Positions 7,625 through 33,895 of a DNA stretch of 33,895 nucleotides are shown here, in pieces (positions within the stretch are counted from its first letter, which is position 1; each line of letters begins with the position of its first letter). The notes below the pieces were generated by a model. It saw nothing but the letters and a program-made list of their open reading frames with translations, did no database searches and was not told the origin of the DNA. The DNA lies in contig SGZB01000011.1 of the NCBI GenBank assembly GCA_004321735.1, positions 1 through 33,895 on the forward strand, read 5' to 3'. Both the position numbers and the translations under genes were made by a program. This stretch comes from Flavobacteriales bacterium (GTDB taxonomy: Bacteria > Bacteroidota > Bacteroidia > Flavobacteriales > Flavobacteriaceae).

Positions 7625-9085
7625 ATGGGTAAATTAAAAGGTTTTGTTGAATATGATAGAACAGATGAAAAATACTTATCTGTTACAGAAAGATTAAAAA
7701 ACTATAAAGAATTTACTATTACACCAGATCAATCTGAAATGGTAAAGCAAGGAGGTAGATGTATGGATTGTGGTGTTCCATTTTGCCACTCAGGATGTCC
7801 ACTCGGAAATTTAATTCCAGATTTCAATGACGCTGTATTCAGAAAAGAATGGAAAATGGCGCTTGACATTCTGCATTCAACAAATAACTTCCCTGAATTT
7901 ACTGGAAGATTATGTCCTGCGCCATGTGAAGCTGCCTGTGTATTAGGATTAATTAATCCTCCAGTCTCAATTGAGATGATTGAAAAATATATTGTTGAAA
8001 GAGGTTTTGAAGAAGGGTGGATAAAAGCAAAAGTTACCTCAAAGAGAACAAATAAAAAAATTGCTGTAGTTGGATCAGGACCAGCTGGATTGGCAGCTGC
8101 TCAACAATTAAATAGTGTAGGTCATAGAGTTGAGGTTTTTGAAAGGGACAATAAAATTGGTGGACTTTTGAGGTATGGCATTCCAGATTTTAAACTTGAA
8201 AAATCAATCATTGATAGAAGACTAAAAATTTTAGAAGAAGAAGGTATAATTTTTCACACCTCTAGAGAAGTTGGAACAGACATTTCTGTTTCTGAACTAG
8301 AAAAAGAATTTGATATTATTTTATTGACTGGTGGAGCTACAATCAGAAGAAAATTACCAATCAAGGGGCACGATTTAAAAGGTGTGGTTCAAGCTATGGA
8401 CTTCCTAAAACATCAAAATGAAGTTATAGACTTAAAAATTGATCAACAGAAAAATTATTCTGCAACATCAAAGAATGTAATTGTTATTGGAGGAGGAGAT
8501 ACAGGGTCTGACTGTATAGGAACATCTAACAGACACAAGGCAAAATCTGTAACTAACTTTGAAATTTTAGATAAACCATCAACTGAAAGAACTGAAGAAA
8601 ACCCATGGCCCTACTGGCCTTTTACTCTTAAGACTAGTTCATCACATGAAGAAGGTATTGATAGAAAATGGTCAATTATGACAAAAGAATTCATTGGTGA
8701 TGAAAACAAAAATCTAACTGGAATAAAGACCGTAGCTGTTGATTGGAAAAAAGATGGTGATAGCAGAAAGTTAATTGAAATCGAAGACTCTGAAAAAGTT
8801 TGGCCATGTGAATTGGCATTATTAGCTCTAGGTTTTACAGGTCCTGAGCAAGATTTGTTTTCAAGTTTAAATATTGAATTAGATCATACGATGAAGCCAG
8901 TAACTGAAAATTATAAAACAACAAATCCAAAGGTTTTTGCAGCAGGAGATTTAAGAAGAGGCCAGTCATTAATTGTATGGGCTATATCGGAAGGAAGAGA
9001 AGCTGCCTACCACATTGACAAGCAGTTGATGGGAAATACAAATCTTCCATCAAAAATTGATGGAGATTTACCATCAATTAAATAA
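7625..9085 (+). CDS. gltD: Glutamate synthase, small beta subunit
   Basis: A 486-residue partner of GltB. It takes electrons from NAD(P)H through FAD and iron-sulfur clusters to the FMN of the large subunit. The N-terminal ferredoxin-like part has two Cys clusters: CMDCGVPFCHSGCP and CPAPCEAACV. A first Rossmann motif, VVGSGPAGLAAAQQL, binds FAD. A second, VIGGGDTGSDC, binds NAD(P)H. The end has the FAD motif FAAGDLRRGQSLIVWA. The ATG lies one base after the gltB stop, so the two subunits are made from one operon. The last 12 bases overlap the end of the convergent porin gene. Confidence 0.97.
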   Translation: MGKLKGFVEYDRTDEKYLSVTERLKNYKEFTITPDQSEMVKQGGRCMDCGVPFCHSGCPLGNLIPDFNDAVFRKEWKMALDILHSTNNFPEFTGRLCPAPCEAACVLGLINPPVSIEMIEKYIVERGFEEGWIKAKVTSKRTNKKIAVVGSGPAGLAAAQQLNSVGHRVEVFERDNKIGGLLRYGIPDFKLEKSIIDRRLKILEEEGIIFHTSREVGTDISVSELEKEFDIILLTGGATIRRKLPIKGHDLKGVVQAMDFLKHQNEVIDLKIDQQKNYSATSKNVIVIGGGDTGSDCIGTSNRHKAKSVTNFEILDKPSTERTEENPWPYWPFTLKTSSSHEEGIDRKWSIMTKEFIGDENKNLTGIKTVAVDWKKDGDSRKLIEIEDSEKVWPCELALLALGFTGPEQDLFSSLNIELDHTMKPVTENYKTTNPKVFAAGDLRRGQSLIVWAISEGREAAYHIDKQLMGNTNLPSKIDGDLPSIK

Positions 9086-10954
9086 ATTCCAATTTAATCC
9101 AAATCTAAAGCTAGTATCCCTGTAGGGGTTAGTTGGTGTTGAGAAATACTTATTTCCAGTTAAACTAGAGTTAATGTGCTCAAAAATGAAAAACAATCTA
9201 GTTTGTCTAATTTTCGCATTAAGAAAAAAATCAATAATTGGGTATCCTCCTATTTTGATTTCATTTTGTACATGAAAAGTTGAAATAAGGGGATTGTACT
9301 CACTTGAGTAAAATTTTGAAAAGTATTTTGCAGTAAAACCTGTTTGAATATCTAATACATTTCTGAAAATTTTTTCTTCAAGATAAATTGATGATCTGGC
9401 TATAAAATCTGGTAAATTCAATACTTCTTTGACTTGATTTACCTTCTGAACTAGTAATGTATTATCTAGATTAAATTTTCCAAAACTAAAATTCTTATTG
9501 ACTTTGATCTTTGATATTTTAATTTCATTTGATGATACTTTTAATTTAGGAACAAAGTCATAATCAATATCTTTTCTTGTATCTATATAAAAATAATTTG
9601 ATATTGATGATAATGTCAACTCAAAAAGATCAAGAAATCTATTTGAAAAATTGATTTTAAGGGAATTATTATTTATCAACTTATTTTGATTATTCCAACC
9701 AACTAAATCATAAGAACTCTTGTAATAGTCATAAATAATACCTGGATGTGTTTCAACAGATGATAACTGAACAAACAAATTATTGATATTTTTAAATTTT
9801 AAAGAGAATAAGTATTTATTTCCTACTCGATCACCATTCATTTTTTTATCAATAGTTGCGGAAAAACTTAATGATTTAGTATTGTGAGATAGTTCGGCAA
9901 ATATCAAATTTGAATTATTTTTAATTTTTGAGTCTGTAGAATTAATTTCAAAAAATTCATAATTGAATCTTTTCAAACCGAACTTTATATTATCAAGCAA
10001 TAAAGATTTGGAATTAAGAAAAAATCTCGCGCTTGAAGTTCTAAATTTAAAACTATCGTTTATGGAATTTGAGCTTGTGCTTGGACCATAATATTCAGGA
10101 TTTATAATAGCTTGACTGTATGAATTATTTACAGTGGTGTAGTGAAAATCAAAACCTAAATTAAATTTATTCTTCCCTGCAAAATTAAAGTGATTTTCAG
10201 AATAAAATTCTCTCTTAAAAAATAGATTTTTTGCATCATCAAATTTTACATTTAATTTTGATTTCTCATTATATAATGGGTCTCCAGATTCAAAATTTTC
10301 TAAAGCAGTTTCAGTCAAACCTCCATTTTCTTTTTTTTCTAATTGTTGCGACAGGTAAAATGTTTTTGAATTAAATTTTTCAGAATTATAATTATATGTA
10401 AATCTAAAATGTTTTGATCCTGATAATGAGTTTTGATATTTCCCCAAAGAGCGTAATGCTTTGAATTCCAATGAAAAATTTAATTTTCTATTAATGTTTG
10501 TTGTAAATAAAGCATTTGTAAGTTGACCCTGAGAAAAAACTGTTTTAAATAAAAGTTCAGTGACTGGGTAAGCAACTTCATAAAATTGAACCTCACTTTT
10601 ATTGGTTAACAAAATATTATTTGCATTGTAGCCAAATGATAGTAAATTATTTTTTGAAGGATTGTATGTTAATTGATTATAAATTTGTCCAACATTATTG
10701 AGTTTTACTAACTCAAAATCATCTTTTCTTATATAATTGAACTTGTAAAATTTTTTTATTGTCAGTGAAGTATCGATATATGAAGTGTCATTTTCTATTG
10801 TAAACCTTTTTAACTTATTTACATCAAACTTAAATTTATCTATTGATAAGGAATCGCCAATATTAGAAATTGTTTTATTTAAAAAACCACCTCCAGTTTG
10901 TGAATACACAAATGAAAAAGAGAGAAATGCTAGTAGAATAAGAATTTTTCTCAA
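9074..10954 (-). CDS. Putative outer-membrane porin (Porin_10-like)
   Basis: A 626-residue secreted beta-strand-rich protein. The N-terminus, RKILILLAFLSFSFVYSQ, is a signal peptide with cleavage likely before QTGGGF. The conserved opening of the flavobacterial 'putative porin' family is recognisable: FNYIRKDDF near residue 75, NNVGQIYNQLTYNP, VAYPVTELLFKTVFSQGQ and LRSLGKYQN. The rest is alternating aromatic/polar strands expected of an outer-membrane barrel, ending in LNWNLFN. Its substrate is unknown. Start: a TAA stop lies two codons upstream and no ATG precedes the signal peptide, so the start is TTG at 10952-10954. It lies convergent to gltD and divergent from rnhB, as I recall from other flavobacterial genomes. 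Confidence 0.85.
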   Translation of the reverse strand: MRKILILLAFLSFSFVYSQTGGGFLNKTISNIGDSLSIDKFKFDVNKLKRFTIENDTSYIDTSLTIKKFYKFNYIRKDDFELVKLNNVGQIYNQLTYNPSKNNLLSFGYNANNILLTNKSEVQFYEVAYPVTELLFKTVFSQGQLTNALFTTNINRKLNFSLEFKALRSLGKYQNSLSGSKHFRFTYNYNSEKFNSKTFYLSQQLEKKENGGLTETALENFESGDPLYNEKSKLNVKFDDAKNLFFKREFYSENHFNFAGKNKFNLGFDFHYTTVNNSYSQAIINPEYYGPSTSSNSINDSFKFRTSSARFFLNSKSLLLDNIKFGLKRFNYEFFEINSTDSKIKNNSNLIFAELSHNTKSLSFSATIDKKMNGDRVGNKYLFSLKFKNINNLFVQLSSVETHPGIIYDYYKSSYDLVGWNNQNKLINNNSLKINFSNRFLDLFELTLSSISNYFYIDTRKDIDYDFVPKLKVSSNEIKISKIKVNKNFSFGKFNLDNTLLVQKVNQVKEVLNLPDFIARSSIYLEEKIFRNVLDIQTGFTAKYFSKFYSSEYNPLISTFHVQNEIKIGGYPIIDFFLNAKIRQTRLFFIFEHINSSLTGNKYFSTPTNPYRDTSFRFGLNWNLFN

Positions 10955-16444: not shown

Positions 16445-18901
16445 ATGAGAAATTATTCAATATTTAAAACTAGTATCACAGTAATTGCTATGCTAGTGAG
16501 TTTTTCAACTTTTTCACAAAAAAAAGATGACTCAAAAAAGGATACTAAAAAAGAGAAGACCTATAGTGACATAATTACAGATAAAGCTGTTACTGATAAT
16601 GGTTTATTCGATGTTCACAAAATTGATGATAAATATTTTTATGAAATAAACGACAGTCTATTAGGAAGAGACATGATGATGGTTACAAGGGTTGTAAAAA
16701 TGGCCACTGAACTTCCACTGAGCCGTCATAAGATGAGTGAACAAGTTTTAAAATGGGAAAAGTTTGACAACAATATTCTACTAAAGCAAGCATCTTATTC
16801 AAAGTTTGCTAATGATTCATTACCAATTAGTATAGCCGTATCAAACTCAAACTTTGAACCTATTATTGCAAGCTTTAAGATTTCTGTAAAAAACAAGGAT
16901 AAAAACTCATATGTAATTGATGTAACTAGCCTTTACAAAAACGATGTAAAAATGTTTGGCTTTCCTCAGTCAACAAGAAAAACATATAAGATTTCTAGTT
17001 TAGACTCTAAGCTTTCATTTATTGAATCTATTAGAAGTTTTCCGTTGAACATTGAAACTAAACATATAAAAACTTATAAATCTTCAGATTCTAGAAATGG
17101 CCAAATTTCTATGGTTTTAAATAATTCAATGGTCCTTTTACCTAAAGAACCTATGAGAAGAAGATATTTTGATGAAAGAGTAGGATGGTTTACAAGTTCA
17201 CAAACTGACTATGGAATTGATAATCAAGAAGCTGAAACCGTAAGGTATCTGGATAGATGGAGATTGGAGGTAAAAGATGAGGATATTGAAAAATTTAAAA
17301 GTGGTGAATTAGTTGAACCAAAAAAACCAATTATCTATTACCTTGATCCTGCTACACCTAAAAAATGGAGAAAGTATTTAAAAGATGGTATTGAGGATTG
17401 GAATGTTGCTTTTGAAGCTGCTGGTTTTAAAAATGCTGTAATTGTAAAATATCCACCTACAAAAGAAGAGGATCCTGATTGGAGCCCTGAGGATGTTAGG
17501 TACTCAACTGTAAGATATCTAGCATCTCCGACACTTAATGCTAATGGACCACATGTTAGTGATCCTAGATCTGGAGAAATTATAGAATCTGATATCAATT
17601 GGTATCATAATGTAATGAAGCTTTTAAGAAATTGGTATTTTGTTCAAACTGCAGCTGTAAATCCAGATGCTAGAGGAGTCGAATTTAAAAATGAAGTTAT
17701 GGGAGAACTTATAAGATTTGTTTCGTCTCATGAGTTTGGTCATACTATTGGACTGCCTCATAACATGGGAAGCAGTAGTGCATATCCAGTGGATTCTTTG
17801 AGATCTGCAACTTTTACAAAAAAATATGGAACTGCCCCTTCAATAATGGATTATGCAAGATTTAATTATGTTGCTCAGCCTGGTGACGAAGGTGTGGCAT
17901 TAATGCCTTCCGACTGGGATACTCCTAATGTTGGTGTGTATGATATATATGCTGTCAAGTGGGGTTATAAACCAATTTTGGATGTTACACATGAGGAAGA
18001 AAAATCTATCCTTCAAAGCTGGATTACTGAAAAAGCAGATGATTTAAAGTATCGTTTTGGAAGCGCAGGAATTGATCCAAGTTCACAAACTGAAGATCTT
18101 GGAGATAACGCTGTCAAAGCCAGTGAATATGGAATTGCTAACCTAAAGAGGATTATGCCTAATCTTATTGAATGGACAACTGAAGATGGTGAAACTTATG
18201 ACGAGCTTGAGTATATGTACAATCAAGTTCTTGGCCAATTTAGAAGGTACATGGGACATGTAGCCAATAATATAGGAGGTGTATATCAATATTATAAAAC
18301 AGCAGATCAGGACGGTGCTGTATATACTCATGTAAGTAAAGAACACCAAAAAGCATGTGTCAATTTTCTAAATAATCACTTATTCAATACTCCTTACTGG
18401 ATGATTGAAAAAGACATTTTAAACAAAATTGAGTTTGCTGGAATGACCAATAGAATAAGAACAGTTCAATCTAGTTATTTAAATAACATATTAGATTTCG
18501 GGAAAATGGCAAGAATGATAGAAAATGAAGCCTTAAACGGAAACAATGCATATACTCTTGAAAACTTTATGAATGATGTTAAAAATGGAATATGGTCAGA
18601 ATTAAGAAATGGAAAGAAAATTGATGTTTATAGAAGAAATCTTCAAAGAACCTACATCCAGAGATTAGGGTATATAATGGCAAATGAACAACCTAGAAGA
18701 CAAGGGTCTTTTTGGGCTAATTATACAACACCAGTTAATGTAGCTGTTTCAGATATTAGATCATCAACTTTAGGAACACTTTTAAATTTAAGAAAAGAAC
18801 TTTCTAAATCTGTGAAGAAATATTCTGATCAAAACACTAAAAATCATTTAAACTACTGTATTGGATTAATAAACAATGCTTTAAATCCTAAATCATCTTA
18901 G
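16445..18901 (+). CDS. Secreted zinc-dependent metalloprotease (DUF5117/DUF4953 type)
   Basis: 818 residues. The N-terminus has a signal peptide ending near TFSQ, followed by a Lys/Asp-rich linker. The metzincin-type zinc site HEFGHTIGLPH begins at His429, with Glu430 as the catalytic base and His433 and His439 as further ligands. SIMDYARFNY, about 45 residues later, could be the Met-turn. Upstream, DERVGWFTSSQTDYG and RWRLEV are typical of this long bacteroidotal family, which carries DUF5118, DUF5117 and DUF4953 domains. It probably degrades peptides in the periplasm or outside the cell; the substrate is unknown. It lies 56 nt after lysS. The end overlaps the convergent glucosaminidase gene by 4 bases. 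Confidence 0.88.
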   Translation: MRNYSIFKTSITVIAMLVSFSTFSQKKDDSKKDTKKEKTYSDIITDKAVTDNGLFDVHKIDDKYFYEINDSLLGRDMMMVTRVVKMATELPLSRHKMSEQVLKWEKFDNNILLKQASYSKFANDSLPISIAVSNSNFEPIIASFKISVKNKDKNSYVIDVTSLYKNDVKMFGFPQSTRKTYKISSLDSKLSFIESIRSFPLNIETKHIKTYKSSDSRNGQISMVLNNSMVLLPKEPMRRRYFDERVGWFTSSQTDYGIDNQEAETVRYLDRWRLEVKDEDIEKFKSGELVEPKKPIIYYLDPATPKKWRKYLKDGIEDWNVAFEAAGFKNAVIVKYPPTKEEDPDWSPEDVRYSTVRYLASPTLNANGPHVSDPRSGEIIESDINWYHNVMKLLRNWYFVQTAAVNPDARGVEFKNEVMGELIRFVSSHEFGHTIGLPHNMGSSSAYPVDSLRSATFTKKYGTAPSIMDYARFNYVAQPGDEGVALMPSDWDTPNVGVYDIYAVKWGYKPILDVTHEEEKSILQSWITEKADDLKYRFGSAGIDPSSQTEDLGDNAVKASEYGIANLKRIMPNLIEWTTEDGETYDELEYMYNQVLGQFRRYMGHVANNIGGVYQYYKTADQDGAVYTHVSKEHQKACVNFLNNHLFNTPYWMIEKDILNKIEFAGMTNRIRTVQSSYLNNILDFGKMARMIENEALNGNNAYTLENFMNDVKNGIWSELRNGKKIDVYRRNLQRTYIQRLGYIMANEQPRRQGSFWANYTTPVNVAVSDIRSSTLGTLLNLRKELSKSVKKYSDQNTKNHLNYCIGLINNALNPKSS

Positions 18902-24238: not shown

Positions 24239-25543
24239 TTATTTTTTTCTAAAATATATTTTTATTGGGACGCTAGTAAAACCATAAAGTGATCTCATTT
24301 TATTTTCAATAAATCTTTTATATGGATCCTTTATGTATTGAGGAAGATTTGCAAAAAAGACAAATTGCGGATAATGTCCAGGAATTTGATTGATATATTT
24401 AATTTTTATTCTTTTACCCTTAACAGAGGGTGGTGGAGTTGATTCTATAATCGGAAGTAAATCGTTATTTAATTTACTTGTTTTAATTTTTTTAGATCTT
24501 GTTTTATAAGTATCAATTGATAACTCTAGTGACTTAAAAATTCTTTGTTTAGTTAGGCAAGAAATAAAAACAATATGAACATCAACAAATGGCTCAATTT
24601 CTTTTTTAATTTTTTCTGTAATTATTTTAGATGAATTAGTTTCCTTGTCAACTAAATCCCATTTATTTACAAGGATGATTATTCCTTTGTTTCTCCTATG
24701 GGCTAACCAAAAAATATTTTTTATTTGAGAATCAAATCCTCTTGTAGCATCCATTATCAAAAGACATACATCACAATTTTCAATTGATCTAATTGATCTA
24801 ACTACACTGTAAAATTCTAAATCTGAGTCAATTTTAGATTTTTTTCTAATTCCAGCTGTGTCAATGATTTTAAAATTAAAATCAAATTTATTGTATACAG
24901 TATCAATGCTATCCCTAGTGGTTCCCGGTTCATTTTTTACAATATTTCTCTCCTCACCAATTAAAGTATTTATATATGAAGATTTACCAGCGTTTGGACG
25001 TCCAACTACTGAAAATGACGGAAGGTCATCTGAAATAAAATCTGATTTGTTGTTTATGTCTTCAACTAATTTATCAAGTAGATCACCTGTTCCACTTCCA
25101 TTAATTGCAGAAATTGCAAATAATGTATCAAAGCCTAGGTTGTAAAATTCTAACGAATCATTTATCAATTTGTTTTTATCAGCTTTATTTACTGCAACAA
25201 TTACTGGCTTATCAGTCTTTCGGAGTAATTTAGATATTTCCTTATCAGAAGAATTATTAGATTCATTTACATCTACAACAAAGATTATTTTATCACATTC
25301 ATCAAGAGCCAAAATCACCTGCTTGTCTATTTCAGATTCATATTTGTCATCCCCTCCACTTACATAACCTCCGGTATCAATTATTGTAAAATTTTTACCA
25401 TTCCAGTCAGATGACGAATAATGCCTGTCCCTTGTAACACCACTGGTAGGATCAACAATTGCAGAATTGCTTTTAGCCAACCTATTGAACAAAGTTGACT
25501 TTCCAACATTTGGTCTACCTACTATTGCAACTATTGTATTCAT
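24239..25543 (-). CDS. der: Ribosome-assembly GTPase Der (EngA)
   Basis: 434 residues with two tandem GTPase domains and a C-terminal KH-like domain, the hallmark of Der, needed for 50S subunit maturation. First G domain: VGRPNVGKSTLFNRL (G1), GVTRDRH (G2), DTGG (G3), NKAD (G4). Second: VGRPNAGKSSYINTL, GTTRDSI, DTAG, NKWD. The C-terminal part has PPPSVKGKRIKIKYINQ and PQFVFFANLP. The start ATG is at 25543, 35 nt after the era stop, so era and der probably form one operon. Confidence 0.98.
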   Translation of the reverse strand: MNTIVAIVGRPNVGKSTLFNRLAKSNSAIVDPTSGVTRDRHYSSSDWNGKNFTIIDTGGYVSGGDDKYESEIDKQVILALDECDKIIFVVDVNESNNSSDKEISKLLRKTDKPVIVAVNKADKNKLINDSLEFYNLGFDTLFAISAINGSGTGDLLDKLVEDINNKSDFISDDLPSFSVVGRPNAGKSSYINTLIGEERNIVKNEPGTTRDSIDTVYNKFDFNFKIIDTAGIRKKSKIDSDLEFYSVVRSIRSIENCDVCLLIMDATRGFDSQIKNIFWLAHRRNKGIIILVNKWDLVDKETNSSKIITEKIKKEIEPFVDVHIVFISCLTKQRIFKSLELSIDTYKTRSKKIKTSKLNNDLLPIIESTPPPSVKGKRIKIKYINQIPGHYPQFVFFANLPQYIKDPYKRFIENKMRSLYGFTSVPIKIYFRKK

Positions 25544-25578: not shown

Positions 25579-26469
25579 TTAACCTAAGTCGTAACCAAAA
25601 CGTTTAAGATGTTTATCCTCAGATTTCCAGTTTTTTAAAACCTTTACTTTTAAATCTATAAAAACTTTCTTTTGAAAGAACTGCTCAAGATCAGTACGCG
25701 CTTTTGTTCCAATTATTTTTAAATTGTTGCCCTTATGCCCAATTAAAATTCCTTTTTGGGATGATCTTTCTACATATATCTGAGATTCGATTTTGATTAT
25801 TTTTGATGAAGGCTTGAAACTAGTAGTTTCAACTTCAACTGAATATGGGATTTCCTTGTCATAATGATTTAAAATTTTTTCCCTAATTATTTCATTAACA
25901 AAAAAACGTTCAGATTTATCAGTTATTTGATCTTTTGAGAAATAGGGATTTCCCTCAGGTGATAGTTCAATAATTTTATCTAATAAATTATCTAGATTAA
26001 AAGGATTAGTAATAGAAATTGGGAAAATAAATTCACTTTTAAAGATAGAGCCAAATTTCACAACAATTTGATCTAAAATAGTATTATCAATTAAGTCAAT
26101 CTTATTCAAGACTATTAAAATGGGGATTTTGAGAGATTTAATCTTATAAATAAGATCATTATCAAAATAATCGTCTTTACTTGAATCAATAACTAACAAA
26201 ATAACGTCTGCATCTGAATAAGAACCACTAACAAACTTCATCATAGATTTGTGAAGTTTATTTTTTGGGGTTATTATTCCTGGAAGATCAGAAAAAACAA
26301 GCTGGTAATGATCATCATTAAGTATACTAAATATTCTATGACGAGTGGTTTGAGCCTTTGGAGAAATTATTGAAATTTTTCTACCCATAAAATAATTTAC
26401 TAGTGAGGACTTTCCGACATTAGGCTTTCCTATAATATTAATGAATGAAGATTTATGAGTTTTTTTCAC
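25579..26469 (-). CDS. era: GTPase Era
   Basis: A KH-domain GTPase that binds the 3' end of 16S rRNA in 30S assembly. G1 is IIGKPNVGKSS, the switch region SPKAQTTRHRI, G3 SDLPG and G4 LNKID; the C-terminal KH domain includes SSQKGILIGHKGNNLKIIG. No ATG lies at the start. I chose the GTG at 26467-26469, which gives MKKTHKSSFINIIG and lines up with the usual SHKAGFVNIIG-type N-terminus (296 aa). A TTG three codons further upstream, at 26478, is the alternative (299 aa). Der follows 35 nt downstream. The gene is divergent from the sugar cassette. Confidence 0.95.
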   Translation of the reverse strand: MKKTHKSSFINIIGKPNVGKSSLVNYFMGRKISIISPKAQTTRHRIFSILNDDHYQLVFSDLPGIITPKNKLHKSMMKFVSGSYSDADVILLVIDSSKDDYFDNDLIYKIKSLKIPILIVLNKIDLIDNTILDQIVVKFGSIFKSEFIFPISITNPFNLDNLLDKIIELSPEGNPYFSKDQITDKSERFFVNEIIREKILNHYDKEIPYSVEVETTSFKPSSKIIKIESQIYVERSSQKGILIGHKGNNLKIIGTKARTDLEQFFQKKVFIDLKVKVLKNWKSEDKHLKRFGYDLG

Positions 26470-26478
26470 GTAATACAA

Positions 26479-26768
26479 TGAATGATGTAAAATTAAAACA
26501 TATAATTATTAAGACTGTGTAAAGTTTAAAATTTATATTTTTTTATGAGAGAAATAACTATACAATACTACAACATTTTGATACTGTATAGGTTAAATAA
26601 TAAAATCTTATGAGGAAAATATAGTAATTAGATATTTATCATTACTCAACAATATGTAAAGGTTTTTTAAAAAAAAAACTGGATATAATGAATTAAATTT
26701 AAGTGTATTGCAAACAACTAACATCATTAACAGTAAACACGCACTATAAATTAAAAAAGATACCATAT
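26479..26768. other. Long AT-rich intergenic region upstream of the sugar cassette
   Basis: This is the longest stretch without a gene in the window, about 290 bp, between divergent era and the phosphorylase gene. I see no RNA gene and no convincing ORF. It holds an imperfect inverted repeat (26558-26591) and a run GGTTTTTTAAAAAAAAAACT near 26661-26680 that could be bent DNA. No exact TAnnTTTG box could be assigned on the plus strand. It should carry the promoters of both flanking units. Confidence 0.6.
26558..26591. promoter_or_regulatory. Imperfect inverted repeat, candidate operator
   Basis: Arms CTATACAATA (26558-26567) and TACTGTATAG (26582-26591) pair at 9 of 10 positions across a 14-nt spacer. 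The half-site centres are about 24 bp apart, a little over two helical turns, which suits a dimeric regulator. It lies about 180 nt before the phosphorylase ATG and about 90 nt from the era start. The role is inferred only from position and symmetry. Confidence 0.35.
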
Positions 26769-29700
26769 ATGGATAACAAAATCTTTTTTGGGAAAACTGA
26801 ATCCTATCTAAGGGATAAAGATGTAAGTGGTAAAGAAATTTCAATTAAAGGAGAAAACTTTTATAAAATTGAAAATCTGGATTCAATGAAGCCATTTTTT
26901 ATGAGCATAGTAAGCCCATATAATCATTGGCTTTTTATATCGAGTAATGGTTCATTATCAGCTGGAAGAAAAAATTCAAACAATGCATTATTTCCGTACT
27001 ACACAGATGATAAAATAACAGAACTTCAGGATGTTACTGGGAACAAAACAATTATTAAAATTTCATATGAAGATAAGCTTTCGTTGTGGGAGCCATTTTC
27101 TTTAAGGCACTACGGTCTTTATGATATAGAAAGAAATTTATATAAAAACTTAAAAGGGAATAAAGTAATCTTTGAAGAAATTAATAATTCTCTTGGACTA
27201 GTTTATAAATACCAATGGTCTTCATGTGATGAATTTGGATTTGTTAAGAAATCTAGTTTAACAAACAATAATGATAAATCAGTTCAGATTGAATTATTAG
27301 ACGGAATACAAAATATTTTGCCATGGGGAGTTGATGAATCACTTCAAAATTCTACTAGTAACTTGGTAGATGCGTACAAAAGGAATGAGCTTGAAAAATT
27401 TTCTAAAATTGGAATTTATGCATTGAGCGCGATAATAGTTGATAAAGCTGAGCCAAGTGAAGCTCTAAAAGCGAATATTGCTTGGTCAACAGGATTTGAT
27501 AAATGTAAAATTTTGATATCATCTCTTCAATTAGATAATTTCAGGAAGAATTTTGACATTTCTCAAGAGGAAGATGTTAAAGCTGAAAAAGGTGCCTATT
27601 TTATAAATTCTGATTTTGAATTGAGCTCTAATCAAAAAAAGACTTGGCATATTGCTTGTGACGTAAATAAATCTTCATCTGAAATAATAAAACTTAAAAA
27701 TACCCTCACAAAACAGAAAAATATTTCTGATAAATTAGATAATTGTGTAGAAAAAGCATCAGACGACCTATTAAAATTAGTTGGATCGTCAGATGGTTTG
27801 CAAACTTCGAATAGAAGATTAAGAAACATCCGTCATTTCTCAAATACTCTTTTCAATATTATGAGAGGTGGAATATTTGATGATCATTATAATATTGAAA
27901 AATCAGATTTTAGTGAGTATGTTAAGAGATCAAATAAAAAAGTCTATTCAAAAAAGAAGGATTTAATTAATAATCTTCCTGATAATTTTGATATTAAAAA
28001 GCTAAGATTTTTATGTGAAAGTGATGATGATAAGAATTTTATAAGACTCTGTTACGAGTACTTACCTTTGAAGTTTAGCAGAAGACACGGGGATCCAAGT
28101 AGACCTTGGAACAAATTTTCTATCAATACAAGAAATGAAATTGATAACTCAAAAATTCTTGATTATCAGGGAAATTGGAGAGATATTTTTCAAAACTGGG
28201 AAGCTTTAGCTTACTCATATCCAGAATTCATTGAGGGAATGATTTGTAAATTTTTAAATTCAACAACTTTTGATGGATATAACCCGTACCGAGTTACCAA
28301 ATATGGTTTTGATTGGGAAACTATTGAGCCTGATAATCCTTGGACATATATTGGGTATTGGGGTGATCATCAAATAATTTATTTACTGAAGTTCTTAGAA
28401 TTTATTGAAGATTATTACCCTGGAAAAATTAAAAAATATTTAGATCATGATTTTTTTGTTTATGCAAATGTTCCTTATAGAATAAAAAGTCATGACGAAA
28501 TTTTAAAAGATCCAAAAAATACAATTGATTTTGATCATGAATGTGAAGAAAAAATTCTTAGAAGAAGAGAAAGATTTGGAATCGATGGAGCTCTACTCAG
28601 AGATGAAAACTACTTTATTATTAAAGTCAATTTTATTGAGAAAATCTTAGCAACGACACTAGCAAAAATTTCAAACTTTATACCAGAAGCTGGTATTTGG
28701 ATGAACACTCAACGACCTGAATGGAATGATGCAAATAATGCTTTAGTAGGGAATGGTGTTTCAATGGTTACTTTATACTACTTAAGAAGATTCCTGGAAT
28801 ATTTTAAAAATATAATTGATAAGTATATTCTATCTGAATACGATTTGTCCTCAGAATTAAAAAATTATTTTGATCAAGTCTATAATTCATTGAAAACTAA
28901 TGAAAATCTAACTAGTAGCTCTATCAATGACGGTGACAGAAAAACTATTTTAGACCTGTTGGGAACAGCAGCCAGTTCTTATAGAAATTCAATTTATAAA
29001 AATGGTTTTTCAGGTGAAAGAAGCCTAATTAACAAAAAAGATTTACTTGATTTTACTGAAATAGCTATAAAATTCCTAGATCATTCAATTAAAGCAAATA
29101 AAAGAGCTGACGGATTATATCACGCCTATAATTTAATCACACTTGATGACAATTCAGTAAAAATCTCTTATTTACCTGAAATGCTTGAAGGTCAAGTTGC
29201 AATTTTGAGTTCGAAAGCATTAAATACTGAAGAAAATTTAAATGTATTAAATAGTTTGAGAGGAAGTAAATTATTTAGACCTGATCAATACAGCTATTTA
29301 TTATATCCTAATAAAAATCTTCCGGGATTTTTAGAAAAAAACAATATTCAAAAAGAAGATGTTTTAAAATCTAAATTATTAACAGATCTTTTAAATGATG
29401 ATAATAGACAAATTATCGTTAAAGATTGTGAAGATGGATATCATTTCAATGGCTCATTCAACAATATAAATTCATTAATTGATGCTTTAAAAAATCTTCC
29501 TGAAAAATATAGCGACACAATTAAAAAGGAAAGAAATTTTATTTATGATTTATTCGAAAAAGTTTTCGATCATAAATCTTTTACCGGGAGGTCGGGAACT
29601 TTTTATGGCTATGAGGGTCTAGGTTCAATCTACTGGCATATGGTCTCTAAACTAAAATTAGCAGTTTATGAAGTAACAAATAAAGCTATTATTTCAAATA

Positions 29701-30233
29701 GTAATGATAAAGTCGTGGGTCAATTATTTGATCATTATTTTGAAATTAATGAAGGTATTGGAGTAAACAAGTCGCCTGATTTATATGGTGCTTTTCCGAC
29801 TGATCCTTATTCTCATACACCATTTGGAAGGGGAGCACAACAGCCTGGAATGACCGGTCAAGTAAAGGAAGATATTATAAGCAGATTCGGTGAGCTAGGT
29901 GTCAGAGTTAAAGAGGGTAAAATTTCATTTGATACAACAATTTTGAGAAAAGATGAATTTATAAATGACAAGAGTAAGTTTAAATATGTTGATTATAACA
30001 ACAATATTCAACATGTTGAATTAGAAGAAAAATCACTAGGATTTAGTATTTGCCAAGTGCCAGTAATTTATCATCTATCAAATAAAGCTGAAACAGTAAT
30101 TTCATTTTCAAATGGAGAAAAAAATAAAATTAATGGAAATGAAATTGATCAAATTAATAGTAAAAAAATATTTGAAAGAACAAACGAAATACAAAGGATT
30201 GATGTATTAACACCAAATAAGAAAAATAAATGA
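26769..30233 (+). CDS. GH149/GH94-like glycoside phosphorylase, probable beta-1,3-glucan phosphorylase
   Basis: 1154 residues, no signal peptide, so cytosolic. Layout fits the GH94-GH149 fold: an N-terminal beta-sandwich (FFGKTESYLRDK, FISSNGSLSAGRKN), a helical linker, an (alpha/alpha)6 barrel and a C-terminal jelly roll. The barrel carries IGYWGDHQI and RPEWNDANNALVGNG, where Asp654 aligns with the general acid of the GH94 'DWND' motif. GRSGTFYGYEGLGSIYWHM later in the chain is a likely phosphate-site region. Length and overall pattern agree with bacterial GH149 beta-1,3-glucan phosphorylases, which release glucose-1-phosphate; 1,2-beta-oligoglucan phosphorylase (GH94) is the main alternative. 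Start: ATG 26769; a GTG at 26703 would add 22 unlikely residues. Its TGA overlaps the next ATG by four bases (ATGA). Confidence 0.7.
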   Translation: MDNKIFFGKTESYLRDKDVSGKEISIKGENFYKIENLDSMKPFFMSIVSPYNHWLFISSNGSLSAGRKNSNNALFPYYTDDKITELQDVTGNKTIIKISYEDKLSLWEPFSLRHYGLYDIERNLYKNLKGNKVIFEEINNSLGLVYKYQWSSCDEFGFVKKSSLTNNNDKSVQIELLDGIQNILPWGVDESLQNSTSNLVDAYKRNELEKFSKIGIYALSAIIVDKAEPSEALKANIAWSTGFDKCKILISSLQLDNFRKNFDISQEEDVKAEKGAYFINSDFELSSNQKKTWHIACDVNKSSSEIIKLKNTLTKQKNISDKLDNCVEKASDDLLKLVGSSDGLQTSNRRLRNIRHFSNTLFNIMRGGIFDDHYNIEKSDFSEYVKRSNKKVYSKKKDLINNLPDNFDIKKLRFLCESDDDKNFIRLCYEYLPLKFSRRHGDPSRPWNKFSINTRNEIDNSKILDYQGNWRDIFQNWEALAYSYPEFIEGMICKFLNSTTFDGYNPYRVTKYGFDWETIEPDNPWTYIGYWGDHQIIYLLKFLEFIEDYYPGKIKKYLDHDFFVYANVPYRIKSHDEILKDPKNTIDFDHECEEKILRRRERFGIDGALLRDENYFIIKVNFIEKILATTLAKISNFIPEAGIWMNTQRPEWNDANNALVGNGVSMVTLYYLRRFLEYFKNIIDKYILSEYDLSSELKNYFDQVYNSLKTNENLTSSSINDGDRKTILDLLGTAASSYRNSIYKNGFSGERSLINKKDLLDFTEIAIKFLDHSIKANKRADGLYHAYNLITLDDNSVKISYLPEMLEGQVAILSSKALNTEENLNVLNSLRGSKLFRPDQYSYLLYPNKNLPGFLEKNNIQKEDVLKSKLLTDLLNDDNRQIIVKDCEDGYHFNGSFNNINSLIDALKNLPEKYSDTIKKERNFIYDLFEKVFDHKSFTGRSGTFYGYEGLGSIYWHMVSKLKLAVYEVTNKAIISNSNDKVVGQLFDHYFEINEGIGVNKSPDLYGAFPTDPYSHTPFGRGAQQPGMTGQVKEDIISRFGELGVRVKEGKISFDTTILRKDEFINDKSKFKYVDYNNNIQHVELEEKSLGFSICQVPVIYHLSNKAETVISFSNGEKNKINGNEIDQINSKKIFERTNEIQRIDVLTPNKKNK

Positions 30234-31222
30234 AGAAATTGATTGTTTTTACTTCTCTAATATTTGCTTTACTTGCAGAAAGCCCTGAGTTAAATAAGGT
30301 TGAAATTCAAAACAATAAATTAAATGTTAATGGTACTGAATATTTTATAAAAGGTATCTGTTATGATCCTGTACCCATTGGAAAAACAAAAAGAAATTTT
30401 AGTACTATTGACAAAGATTTATTGTTGATGCAAGAAGCTGGCATTAACACAATAAGAGTTTACTCTCCGATAGATGAACTCGCTATTTTGAATAAAATTG
30501 ATAAAGCAGGAATTAAAGTAATTACAAGTTTTGGTTATAATCAAAATGGATATTATGACATTTTAAGCGGAACATATATCGATTATATAAATAAATATAA
30601 AGATCATAATGCAATACTGCTCTGGGAGTTAGGTAATGAATATAATTATCATCCTGAGTGGTTTAATATGAATATTGACAATTGGTATTTAACAATGAAT
30701 AATGCTGCAAAAAAAATTAAACAGATTGATAAAAATCATCCTGTTTCAACAGCACATGGCGAAATTCCTAATAAAAAAGCCAGGGAAATGGTATCAAATA
30801 TAGATATGTGGGGGATTAATGTTTACAGATGGGATGATCCAACTCCTGTAATTGAAGAGTGGGAAAAAGTAAGTGATTTGCCACTTTATTTTTCTGAAAT
30901 TGGAAGTGATAGCTATATGACAAAAGATTATAATGAATTTAAAAAAGGAATAAATGAAGATGCGCAAGCAGCAGCCAATCACAACATAATCAAAAATGTT
31001 TTCAGAATGAAAGATAGATTAACTGGGCTTGTAATTTTTCAGTTTGTTGATGGGTTATGGAAAGCAGGTAATCCTGAAAAACAAGATATTGGTGGTTGGG
31101 CACCTAATAGTATTGGAGTTCCTTATGATGGAAGCCCAAATGAAGAATTTTGGGGAATTGTGGATATAAATAGAAACAAAAAGAAAACATTTGAAGTAAT
31201 CAAGAAGTTTTTCAACAATTAA
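30230..31222 (+). CDS. Exported clan GH-A glycoside hydrolase, probable beta-glucanase
   Basis: 330 residues. The N-terminus MKKLIVFTSLIFALLAES looks like a signal peptide, so the enzyme is probably periplasmic. A single TIM barrel follows: VNGTEYFIKGICYDP opens it, AGINTIRVYSPIDE gives the beta-2/beta-3 region, LLWELGNEYNY holds the acid/base Glu137, WGINVYRWDD follows, and LYFSEIGSD holds the nucleophile Glu223. Both acids mark a retaining clan GH-A enzyme. The opening resembles GH2 TIM barrels and GH72 glucanosyltransferases; I cannot fix the family. Trp-rich segments near the C-terminus could line sugar subsites. It is translationally coupled to the phosphorylase and followed after 2 nt by the transporter, so trimming of the same glycan is the likely role. 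Confidence 0.7.
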   Translation: MKKLIVFTSLIFALLAESPELNKVEIQNNKLNVNGTEYFIKGICYDPVPIGKTKRNFSTIDKDLLLMQEAGINTIRVYSPIDELAILNKIDKAGIKVITSFGYNQNGYYDILSGTYIDYINKYKDHNAILLWELGNEYNYHPEWFNMNIDNWYLTMNNAAKKIKQIDKNHPVSTAHGEIPNKKAREMVSNIDMWGINVYRWDDPTPVIEEWEKVSDLPLYFSEIGSDSYMTKDYNEFKKGINEDAQAAANHNIIKNVFRMKDRLTGLVIFQFVDGLWKAGNPEKQDIGGWAPNSIGVPYDGSPNEEFWGIVDINRNKKKTFEVIKKFFNN

Positions 31223-31224
31223 AA

Positions 31225-32616
31225 ATGAAATCAAAAGTTACCAACTTAGAAAAAATTGCTTTTGGATTTGGAATGTTAGCAAATCAAATGTTCCCTGCTG
31301 CACTGGGTATTTTTATTATTGTATTAATTCAAGACTTGGGATTTGCTGCAATTATGTGGGGTATATTACAATTTGCTCCACGACTATTTGATGCGATTAC
31401 AGACCCTCTGATGGGTTTCATATCTGATAATACTAAATCAAAATGGGGACGTAGAAGGCAGTATGTATTAATTGGTGGAATATTAATGGGTATATCATAC
31501 ATTGCTATGTGGCAGATTTATGCAGAAAACGGTTTAACATACAATTTTGTTTATTTCCTACTGTGGTCACTAGTCTTTTATCTTGGTTTAACAATATTTA
31601 GTGTTCCTTATGTTGCAATGGGCTATGAAATGAGTGATGATTTTCATGAAAGAACTCAAATCATGGCAATTGCACAGTTTATTGGACAGTGGGCCTGGGT
31701 AATTGCACCATGGTTTTGGATAATTCTGTATGACCCAGAGATTTATCCTCAAGGTGCTGATCAGGGTGTTAGAGAATTATCTATTTGGGTAGCTATTGCC
31801 TGCACTCTTTTTGCTATTGCTCCAGCAATATTTATTAGAAGCAAATCAACAATAGATAGATCAGACTTAGTTCCAATCAATACAGCAAATATTGGAAATA
31901 GTATTAAAAATATTTTTATCACTGCTTTTGGGGCTTTTAAGATTAAACCTTTTAGAAGAATAGCAATTGCTACTTTTCTGGTATTTAATTCTTTTCAAGT
32001 AATTGCTCCATTTACTTTTTTAATAATAGTTCATTATCTATTTGGCAGTGATACAACAGCTGCAGGATATTGGCCAGCTCTTCATGGTTCAATTGGTGCA
32101 CTTATTACTTCATTTTTTGTGATACCACTCATTACTTTTATCTCGAGAAAAATAGGAAAAAAGAAAGCATTTATAATATCTCAGTTAGTTTCAGTTATAG
32201 GTTATGTTTTATTTTGGTTTTTATTTATTCCAGGTAAACCTTACATGTTCTTATACGCTTTACCTTTCCATTCTTTTGGTATAGGTAGCTTATTTACAAT
32301 TATGATGTCAATGACAGCTGATATTTGTGACTTGGATGAGCTTGAAAATGGAACTAGAAGAGAAGGTGTTCTAGGTGCAGTTTATTGGTGGATGGTAAAA
32401 TTAGGGTTCGGAGTTGCAGGTCTTCTAAGTGGATTAACTTTACAATTTGTCGGCTTTGATGCAGAAAATGTAACTGAATTTGCAATTGATGGAATGAGAA
32501 TGTTTTATACAGTTATCCCAATCATAGGAATTTTTATAGCAATCTACTTAATGAAAGATTACGAGATTAATGAGAAAAGAGCTAATGAAATAAAGAAATT
32601 ATTAAATAAAAAATAA
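31225..32616 (+). CDS. GPH-family (MelB-like) sugar:cation symporter
   Basis: 463 residues with about 12 transmembrane helices and no signal peptide, in the inner membrane. The MFS_2/GPH hallmarks are present: RLFDAITDPLMGFISDNT and KWGRRRQYVLIGG in the loop between helices 2 and 3, VPYVAMGYEMSDDFHERT near helix 4, and MTADICDLDELENGTRREG in the C-terminal half. Members carry glycosides, pentosides or hexuronides with Na+ or H+. It is last in the cassette with the phosphorylase and the exported glycosidase, so the cargo is probably a short beta-gluco-oligosaccharide. The cation cannot be told from sequence, though Na+ would suit a marine cell. Confidence 0.9.
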   Translation: MKSKVTNLEKIAFGFGMLANQMFPAALGIFIIVLIQDLGFAAIMWGILQFAPRLFDAITDPLMGFISDNTKSKWGRRRQYVLIGGILMGISYIAMWQIYAENGLTYNFVYFLLWSLVFYLGLTIFSVPYVAMGYEMSDDFHERTQIMAIAQFIGQWAWVIAPWFWIILYDPEIYPQGADQGVRELSIWVAIACTLFAIAPAIFIRSKSTIDRSDLVPINTANIGNSIKNIFITAFGAFKIKPFRRIAIATFLVFNSFQVIAPFTFLIIVHYLFGSDTTAAGYWPALHGSIGALITSFFVIPLITFISRKIGKKKAFIISQLVSVIGYVLFWFLFIPGKPYMFLYALPFHSFGIGSLFTIMMSMTADICDLDELENGTRREGVLGAVYWWMVKLGFGVAGLLSGLTLQFVGFDAENVTEFAIDGMRMFYTVIPIIGIFIAIYLMKDYEINEKRANEIKKLLNKK

Positions 32617-32670
32617 TATGTCGTATAGAGAAGAAAGCTTATTCTAAAGAACAGATTTAAAAATTTATTT

Positions 32671-32688: not shown

Positions 32689-32761
<73 letters not shown>

Positions 32762-32771
32762 CTAAAACAAT

Positions 32772-32875: not shown

Positions 32876-33895
32876 ATGAAAAATTTTCTTTCATCTTTAT
32901 TTGTTATATGTATATTATATGCTCAAAGTCAAGAAAAGAATAGACTTTCACTAGAACATTATAAAAATTATGAGTGGACTTCAAATCCAAAACTTTCACC
33001 AGATGGCGAGCAAATACTTTACTCAAGAACATGGATTAATCTTGTTGATGATAAACGAGAAACCGACCTATGGATTATGAATAATGATGGTTCAACCAAC
33101 AGATTTTTTATGAATGGATCTAATGGAAAATGGTCTCCAAATGAAAATAAAATTGCTTTTACTAAAAAAGGTGAACCTAATGGTACGCAAATTTTTGTAA
33201 AATATCTTGGTGTTGAAGGTGATCCTACTCAAATTACAAAGTTAGAAAAATCACCATCTAATATAGAATGGTCTCCCGATGGTAAATATATTGCATTTTT
33301 AATGCATGTTTCATCTGATCCGGCTTTAAAACCAATTGGAGTTCCGAATCGCCCAAAAGGTGCTAAATGGACTGAAGCTCCTAATGTAATAGATCAAGTT
33401 GATTATAGTCAGGATCGAGTAGGTTTTCTTGAAAGGGGATTTAGTCAATTATTTATTGTTCCAGCTGATGGAGGAACTGCAAGACAAATTACATTTGGAG
33501 AATATGACGATGTTTCTGGAGGAATTACATGGACAAGAGACAGTAAAAAAATAATCTTTAGCAGCTATCAGAAACCCGAAGCCGAATATGCAAGAGGACA
33601 ATCAAACCTTTATTCAGTTGATATAAATAATTTAGAAATTAATGAATTGACAACTAGAGAAGGAACAGAGTCATCTCCTAAAGTTTCGCCTGACGGAACT
33701 AAGGTTGCATTTATAGGCTCTACATGGTCTAAAAACTTTTACAATGACCGTAAAATGTATGTAATGAATATTGATGGCTCAGATTTAGAATGCGTTACAT
33801 CTAGTTTAGATCAAACACCTAGCTCTGCTTTTTGGTCAAGTAACAGCTCAGGAGTATATTTTAATGTAAGAGAATATGGTCAAAGCAATGTATAT
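32876..33895 (+). CDS. S9-type (prolyl oligopeptidase family) peptidase, N-terminal part, cut by window end
   Basis: 340 residues are seen and the frame runs off the right edge. A signal peptide (MKNFLSSLFVICILYAQSQ) precedes LEHYKNYEWTSNPKLSPDG. Repeated WD40/PD40 blades follow, each with the 'SPDG' type turn: LSPDGEQILYSR, WSPNENKIAFTK, WSPDGKYIAFL, WTRDSKKIIFSS, VSPDGTKVAFIG. This is the N-terminal beta-propeller of exported S9 dipeptidyl/oligopeptidases; the Ser-Asp-His hydrolase domain would lie beyond the window, so activity is inferred. A TolB-like propeller protein is the alternative. A second ATG 5 nt upstream is out of frame. Confidence 0.85.
   Translation, partial: MKNFLSSLFVICILYAQSQEKNRLSLEHYKNYEWTSNPKLSPDGEQILYSRTWINLVDDKRETDLWIMNNDGSTNRFFMNGSNGKWSPNENKIAFTKKGEPNGTQIFVKYLGVEGDPTQITKLEKSPSNIEWSPDGKYIAFLMHVSSDPALKPIGVPNRPKGAKWTEAPNVIDQVDYSQDRVGFLERGFSQLFIVPADGGTARQITFGEYDDVSGGITWTRDSKKIIFSSYQKPEAEYARGQSNLYSVDINNLEINELTTREGTESSPKVSPDGTKVAFIGSTWSKNFYNDRKMYVMNIDGSDLECVTSSLDQTPSSAFWSSNSSGVYFNVREYGQSNVY

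Follow-up and report, generated by a model that had tools for sequence, protein, structure and literature searches.

Laminarin is among the largest marine carbon flows. In Bacteroidetes, genes for phosphorylases of glycoside hydrolase family GH149 lie mostly in polysaccharide utilisation loci (PULs) or in clusters of carbohydrate-active enzymes (CAZymes) lacking susCD, with GH3 or GH30_1 and GH17 or GH16 enzymes as their usual partners (PMC5827456; here and below, statements on published systems extend to the cited parts of each source). A variant 1 laminarin PUL lacking susCD has likewise been described in the NS4 metagenome-assembled genome (MAG) W_MB115 (PMC10108472). Here we analyse a cassette of three open reading frames (ORF1 to ORF3) on a 33,895-nt stretch of DNA, hereafter the window, which is the entire contig C3 (SGZB01000011.1) of the 1.15-Mb assembly GCA_004321735.1, a MAG that is 77.7% complete. 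Sequence comparison makes it quite probable that, in a streamlined marine member of the Flavobacteriaceae, a cluster for the use of laminarin (beta-1,3-glucan) has been reduced to a core of these three genes, with uptake via a SusC/SusD pair on another contig (C5) and with both GH17 genes lost.

By family, ORF1 is a predicted GH149 beta-1,3-glucan phosphorylase. Its single NCBIfam match is the GH149 equivalog NF058639 (E 0, 1739.8 bits against a cut-off of 1150), with residues 16-1147 aligned to positions 2-1132 of the 1134 in the profile, and its best sequence in the Protein Data Bank (PDB) is 6hq6, matched end to end with E 0; Pfam gave no match, and NCBIfam none other than GH149. The active site of clan GH-Q is kept as R471 and D472, W652, N653 and D654, and H957, aligned to the residues of Pro_7066 (PMC6771811). 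An earlier reading of this DNA from sequence alone had proposed a GH149/GH94-like phosphorylase, of which GH149 is upheld and GH94 and GH161 are not: GH161 chain 9qqk and 9h8v (named cellobiose phosphorylase) reached E 1.6e-13 and 2.4e-13, respectively, against E 0 for GH149. ORF1 is open from a GTG at 26703, and the ATG at 26769 (1154 aa) matches the starts of its relatives. Pro_7066 phosphorolyses beta-1,3-oligosaccharides with a degree of polymerisation of at least 2 (PMC6484121). Beta-1,3-glucan oligosaccharides are the likely substrate of ORF1, and the earlier best guess of a laminarin-type beta-1,3-glucan gains support to that extent, as a prediction from the GH149 family.

GH149 is carried by 34 of 100 family genomes and by 4 of 23 genus genomes, our own being counted in both. 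In congeners G107 and G100 the gene order is GH149-GH17-GHA-symporter-GH17, GHA being the counterpart of ORF2 (the G100 contig starts inside GH149), and in congener G102 it is GH149-GH17-GHA-GH30, after which the contig ends. A secreted GH17 is present between GH149 and GHA in three same-genus genomes, with a second GH17 after the symporter in two of them; the first GH17 of G107 has 6fcg as its best PDB match (E 9e-161). The cassette adjoins era and der in G107 and G102, and a tRNA-Met lies beyond it in G107 and G100, in each case as in the window. A clear era match (E at most 1e-50) was found in 16 of the 23 genus genomes, 13 of them without a GH149 match, and in all six of these 13 that were inspected (G101, G105, G106, G108, G115 and G116) 80-123 nt separate era from the tRNA-Met and the cassette is absent. 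Because GH149-negative congeners have era and tRNA-Met without the cassette, we regard it as an accessory block at this site. In G108, what follows beyond era and tRNA-Met is a homologue of the S9-type peptidase gene of the window, 76% identical over 340 aa. A search for attachment-like repeats found none: direct repeats shared by the two spacers reach 10 nt at most, equal to shuffles.

Both former GH17 positions bear deletion scars in the window. At the first, the window GH149 follows that of G107 up to ...RIDV and thereafter follows the end of the G107 GH17 (window ...IDVLTPNKKNK; G107 GH17 ...MIDVLTPNKINK), the GH17-like tail includes the stop that overlaps the start of ORF2, and GATGT is present at the junction in both parent genes, GH149 and GH17. 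In a gapped alignment, the last 42 nt of ORF1 score 29 against the 3' end of the G107 GH17, whereas 1000 letter shuffles score no higher than 18, and the printed GH17 tails of 14 other loci read differently from the ORF1 tail. We infer that the last ~11 codons of ORF1 derive from a lost GH17 gene. At the second position, an ATG one base after the ORF3 stop opens MSYREESLF and then a stop; the intact G107 GH17 begins MSFRED there, with 21 of 30 nt identical, and the GH17 proteins of relatives open with MS[FYLIH]R, suggesting that this stub is what remains of the 5' end of a second, lost GH17 gene. A GH17 profile that does detect GH17 in 3 of the 23 genus genomes (the other GH149 carriers) found none in our own assembly, and GH30 was not found in our own genome, control genomes giving matches. 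The cassette, once taken as minimal, is instead what remains of a larger laminarin cluster. The open literature searched, which leaves out most subscription journals, yielded no paper on a GH149 cassette from which GH17 was deleted.

No SusC/D family was found among the 17 Pfam-scanned of the window's 21 ORFs of at least 100 aa, and comparison with SusC/SusD reference proteins identified no SusC/D among the window ORFs, which agrees with the sequence-only reading that no such pair lies beside the genes. That reading also held that Bacteroidota GH149 genes are usually placed in PULs, as PMC5827456 reports together with clusters lacking susCD; here there is no SusC/SusD pair beside the cassette CAZymes, as a PUL with SusC/D would have. 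It proposed looking for the missing functions in the rest of the genome, and that search returned SusC/D on C5 and C50 and one GH16 on C32, with GH17 and GH30 not found in the 77.7%-complete assembly. Profile matches comprised eight to PF00593 and three to PF07980, all off the window contig; PF00593 missed the SusC of C5 and of C50, so its count is not exhaustive. Two of the three SusD matches are on C50, where one SusC/SusD pair is flanked by sulfatase-like genes (L163 11807-19485) and the locus probably serves another, sulphated glycan. The third is on C5. The C5 SusD is 74% and the C5 SusC 62-64% identical to the SusD and SusC upstream of GH149 in loci L006 and L007. After the C5 pair come a PKD protein and then, where the contig ends, one of 289 aa, and before the pair lies a regulator of the Y_Y_Y/LuxR type; GH149 loci contain homologues of all three. 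The best PDB match of the C5 SusD is 6gcz (E 5e-66), with further matches to 9sje/9sjj and 7kv1-7kv4; 6GCZ is GMSusD, which binds branched laminarin, and 7KV3 is BtSGBP-A with laminarihexaose (PMC11351036). The SusC/D half and the GH149 half are contiguous in L006 and L007, while era precedes the window GH149, so the laminarin locus is split in the window genome, at least for GH149. Across the GH149 loci that we compared, the best 80 of at least 584 relatives, a Pfam-checked SusC/D pair was present within the fetched stretch in 19, and in 16 of the 49 that are well flanked (>9 kb to either side); c6-type loci (described below) reach the edge of the stretch near c6, and pairs further upstream are unseen in these counts.

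In the reading we favour, SusC/SusD of C5 would bind extracellular laminarin or its fragments and carry them across the outer membrane, the exported GH-A enzyme ORF2 would act in the periplasm on the glucan or its oligosaccharides, and ORF3 would move short beta-1,3-gluco-oligosaccharides into the cytosol, where stepwise phosphorolysis by ORF1 would yield glucose-1-phosphate and finally glucose. Compared with hydrolysis, phosphorolysis would save one ATP per glucose. Import followed by cytosolic phosphorolysis, as proposed earlier, is upheld as the predicted route. ORF3 scores 199.9 bits against Pfam MFS_2, well above the cut-off, and has TIGR00792 (GPH) as its best NCBIfam match; the former label of GPH symporter stands in part, as GPH-like. 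It is without a C-terminal GH17 domain; some relatives fuse one (MFS-GH17 in L005), and an MFS-GH17 fusion has been reported in Formosa (PMC6246565). Between era and tRNA-Met, the ancestral block would have run GH149, secreted GH17, GHA, (GH30 in one relative), symporter and second GH17, and both GH17 genes would later have disappeared from the window lineage, the first through a deletion at a short sequence that it shared with GH149, leaving GH149 with a GH17 tail.

An organism that takes up, via porins, only short laminari-oligosaccharides released by others, with C5 serving another glycan, is an unlikely though still serious alternative. It would fit the lack of SusC/D beside the genes, the loss of both GH17 genes, the GH30 that was not found and a Porin_10 gene in the window (9074-10954), and scavenging has been proposed for Proteobacteria type I GH149 clusters without an outer-membrane transporter (PMC5827456). 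It accords poorly with the C5 SusC/SusD, a type of pair that relatives carry next to GH149, and with the best match of its SusD to a laminarin binder. The sequence-only reading had left the choice between scavenging and an outer-membrane step encoded elsewhere; because of the laminarin-type SusC/SusD locus on C5, the second is favoured and pure scavenging is not.

Several results count against a remnant cluster fed from C5. By tblastn, the C-terminus of the G107 GH17 recovers 10 of 11 residues at 30198-30230 with E 0.5 alone, which is weak by itself, and an ungapped, misregistered count gives 18/42 identities to the GH17 tail against 22/42 to the GH149 tail, so that the gapped alignment carries the claim. 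ORF3 reaches 171.4 bits for TIGR00792, below the cut-off of 231.35, and is not counted as a member. C5 and C3 are linked by homology only, and the one GH16 of the genome (on C32) is only ~27% identical to GH16s of GH149 loci. In a 77.7%-complete MAG the missing GH17 and GH30 may sit in the unassembled part, and the scars are known from the assembly alone. The GH17 losses could be artefacts of collapsed or misjoined strain variants, the true locus being the five-gene cassette of the congeners; the window is a single MAG contig, and congener G102 has the same region on two contigs (C4, C58). This we consider very improbable, in that two separate deletions on one contig each keep the reading frames, the first retaining the stop codon of GH17, which overlaps ORF2 by ATGA, and the second leaving a translated stub, and GH17 was not found anywhere in the assembly. 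The two G102 contigs, C4 (L153) and C58 (L155), each hold era plus the 5' portion of GH149 and probably represent two strains in the bin. That the cassette runs in reverse or recycles the cell's own glucan is scarcely credible, for although GH149 phosphorolysis is reversible in vitro (PMC5827456), the genes around it in relatives encode exported laminarinases, SusC/D and symporters.

ORF2 fits the name of exported clan GH-A glycosidase given to it earlier, as a prediction from Pfam GH-A-type barrels and an N-terminal hydrophobic stretch; its family is unsettled. Pfam places it barely above threshold in both GH72 (29.6 bits, cut-off 25.9) and the GH2 TIM barrel (29.2 bits, cut-off 21). Among its relatives, E137 and E223 are invariant in 22 rows, E223 even in the row truncated after it, and an AlphaFold2 model built from the 22 rows is a barrel with a predicted local distance difference test score (pLDDT) of 82.6 and a predicted template modelling score (pTM) of 0.84, residues 295-310 falling below a pLDDT of 50. 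The top Foldseek match of the model is GH158 9p26 (E 1.8e-15, TM-score 0.59, 20% identity), GH2 enzymes ranking close behind with TM-scores up to 0.70 among the 50 matches shown, and in the GH158 comparison a profile match to 9oro extends over 138 columns (E 5.8e-12). The GH72 match is partial (profile 8-267 of 314) and occurs in 18 of 22 relatives at E<=0.01, with similar scores for GH2_C. GH2 was rejected: its PF02836 barrel is matched in 22/22 relatives, but PF02837 and PF00703 were found neither in the window protein nor among the families listed for the 22 relatives. GH72 and GH158 remain candidate families. A crude pattern search found a lipobox-like motif in 11 of the 22 relatives and not in the window protein.

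We searched a profile of ORF2 against 80 genomes, 25 with GH149 and 55 without. The close form (>300 bits) is present in 13, of which 12 are GH149-positive and have the gene within ~3.3 kb (hypergeometric P 9e-7). The exception, G055, scores 332 bits with no GH149 found in a genome that is 86% complete; there the ORF2 homologue (L202 9461-10639, 39% identity) has a secretion-sorting tail, and a GH5-CBM6 protein is encoded ~6 kb off. All 25 GH149-positive genomes have some match no more than ~8 kb away from a GH149 gene, with three of the matches weak (<=36.6 bits; G032, G047 and G056), and for the second GH149 gene of G050 no adjacent match was found among the matches listed. Since 30 of the 55 GH149-negative genomes also match, mostly weakly, the signal is adjacency to GH149, not mere presence.

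The companion comes in several sizes. Among the 80 loci, a 330-aa form occurs in 19, a ~1050-aa form (c6) in 38 and a ~434-aa form in 5, never together (Fisher 1.5e-8). Cultured Flavobacteriaceae that carry the short form include Formosa algae (L052) and Algibacter luteus (L076). Full exclusivity is broken by a fourth barrel, c14 (~439 aa, 6 loci), which accompanies c6 in L008 and the short form in L014 and L066. A further 18 loci, mostly short contigs, have neither the 330-aa form nor c6 nor the ~434-aa form, and the well-flanked ones among them (3/3) carry c14. An ORF2-profile match is present in 49/49 well-flanked loci (12 short form, 32 ~1050-aa, 2 ~434-aa and 3 c14). In c6, Pfam shows only a GH2-type TIM barrel, and the ORF2 profile matches the first ~370 residues. 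A positive association of GHA with GH30 was not found (GH30 in 10/19 short-GHA loci against 46/61 without, P 0.08); in L012 (14584-17184), an ORF2 homologue and GH30 share one open frame of 866 aa. As a tentative proposal that may well prove wrong, ORF2 would found an unrecognised family of clan GH-A, a constant GH149 partner in three mutually exclusive sizes (330, ~434 and ~1050 aa), performing one beta-glucan step indispensable to the phosphorolytic route and kept as the last exported glycosidase once the laminarinases were gone. No paper on ORF2 as a family was found in the same open literature. The GH0 of the 'GH149-GH0' gene strings that have been reported (PMC10108472) may be this family, and the GH2-annotated beta-glycosidase that accompanies GH149 in Muricauda laminarin PULs (PMC13188888) is probably a ~1050-aa relative of ORF2.

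The three-gene layout, with its 4-nt overlap and 2-nt gap, was reproduced at the same coordinates (Table 1). Cassette genes are under constraint: the ratio of non-synonymous to synonymous substitution rates (dN/dS) against a congener is ~0.07 for ORF1, 0.11 for ORF2 and 0.10 for ORF3, while der gives 0.07 and era 0.16, all rough values with dS near saturation.

Table 1. Coordinates of the cassette, its scars and its borders in the window.
Feature	Position	Strand	Basis
ORF1, GH149 beta-1,3-glucan phosphorylase, 1154 aa, predicted cytosolic	26769..30233	+	NF058639, PDB 6hq6, active-site residues
GH149 3' terminus similar to that of a secreted GH17 gene since lost (putative deletion scar)	30198..30233	+	tblastn, nucleotide alignment
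ORF2 ('GHA'), predicted exported clan GH-A glycosidase, family unsettled, 330 aa	30230..31222	+	Pfam, invariant Glu, AlphaFold2 barrel, fold matches
ORF3, MFS_2/GPH-type sugar:cation symporter (predicted), 463 aa	31225..32616	+	MFS_2; TIGR00792 below cut-off
Nine-codon stub MSYREESLF + stop, putative 5' remnant of a second GH17 gene since lost	32618..32647	+	Position and nucleotide identity against G107
tRNA-Met (CAT), marking the distal edge of the insertion site	32689..32762	+	ARAGORN; also beside era in 6 congeners without GH149
era (reads as GTPase Era), marking the proximal edge of the insertion site	25579..26478	-	Sequence and neighbour der; conserved in congeners
der (EngA), beside era	24239..25543	-	TIGR03594, 497.1 bits
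S9-type peptidase-like gene, runs off the contig	32876..33895	+	DPPIV_N/PD40; G108 homologue

Related gene orders also occur outside the genus. In L015 (9986-21748), L016 (9986-21747) and L023 (648-13716), from Schleiferiaceae/Cryomorphaceae, GH149-GH17-GHA-GH30-GPH-GH17 lies directly upstream of era-der in the orientation opposite to that of the window, reflecting either a recurrent insertion site or coincidence. The SAR86 records L039 and L070 carry GH149-GH17-GHA-GPH in the order of G107 and G100, L070 adding a second GH17. In a GH149 tree these two are sister to the genus (SH-aLRT 99), with long branches and deviating composition, and we do not rely on that placement; transfer between phyla is possible. 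No paper linking SAR86, laminarin and horizontal gene transfer was found in an open literature search. Elsewhere in the window (16445-18901) lies an outlying hypothetical protease, a Met-zincin protein with DUF5117/DUF5118 (Pfam).

Set against the characterised enzymes Pro_7066 (PDB 6hq6/6hq8) and EgP1 of Kuhaudomlarp et al. (PMC5827456, PMC6771811, PMC6484121), ORF1 shows full-length homology and the same RD, WND and His residues, and differs in its short C-terminal tail resembling that of GH17. The locus shares the order of GH149 and MFS transporter with laminarin PUL variant B, or 'variant 1', of marine Flavobacteriia (PMC6298971, PMC6246565, PMC10108472), and its congeners share the GH17 sites; in contrast, the window cassette has no GH17, GH30, GH16 or SusC/D, bears deletion scars and has its likely uptake genes on another contig. 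Variant B is defined by GH16, GH30 and two GH17, of which this 77.7%-complete genome yielded one GH16, on C32, with GH17 and GH30 not found. Bacteroidetes GH149 clusters lacking susCD and the Proteobacteria type I and II clusters (PMC5827456) likewise combine a phosphorylase with an inner-membrane transporter in the absence of SusC/D, but hold GH3/GH30 and GH16/GH17 or ABC transporters, whereas the window keeps only its GH-A enzyme. Maribacter (PMC11345257) has its laminarin genes dispersed over the genome, as here; the cited part of that paper describes GH16_3, GH3 and an ABC transporter, with no GH17 or GH30 and no mention of GH149. Muricauda laminarin PULs (PMC13188888) also place a GH-A protein, annotated as GH2, beside GH149, but ORF2 is a stand-alone 330-aa barrel. 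We suggest that the locus is a dated-by-scar case of a streamlined bacterium dismantling a laminarin cluster gene by gene while retaining the phosphorylase, the symporter and one exported GH-A enzyme, ORF2, flagged as a constant GH149 partner and the part most worth testing. GH149 clusters lacking SusCD are already in print; to these the present locus adds the scars, the split locus and a constant uncharacterised companion, ORF2.

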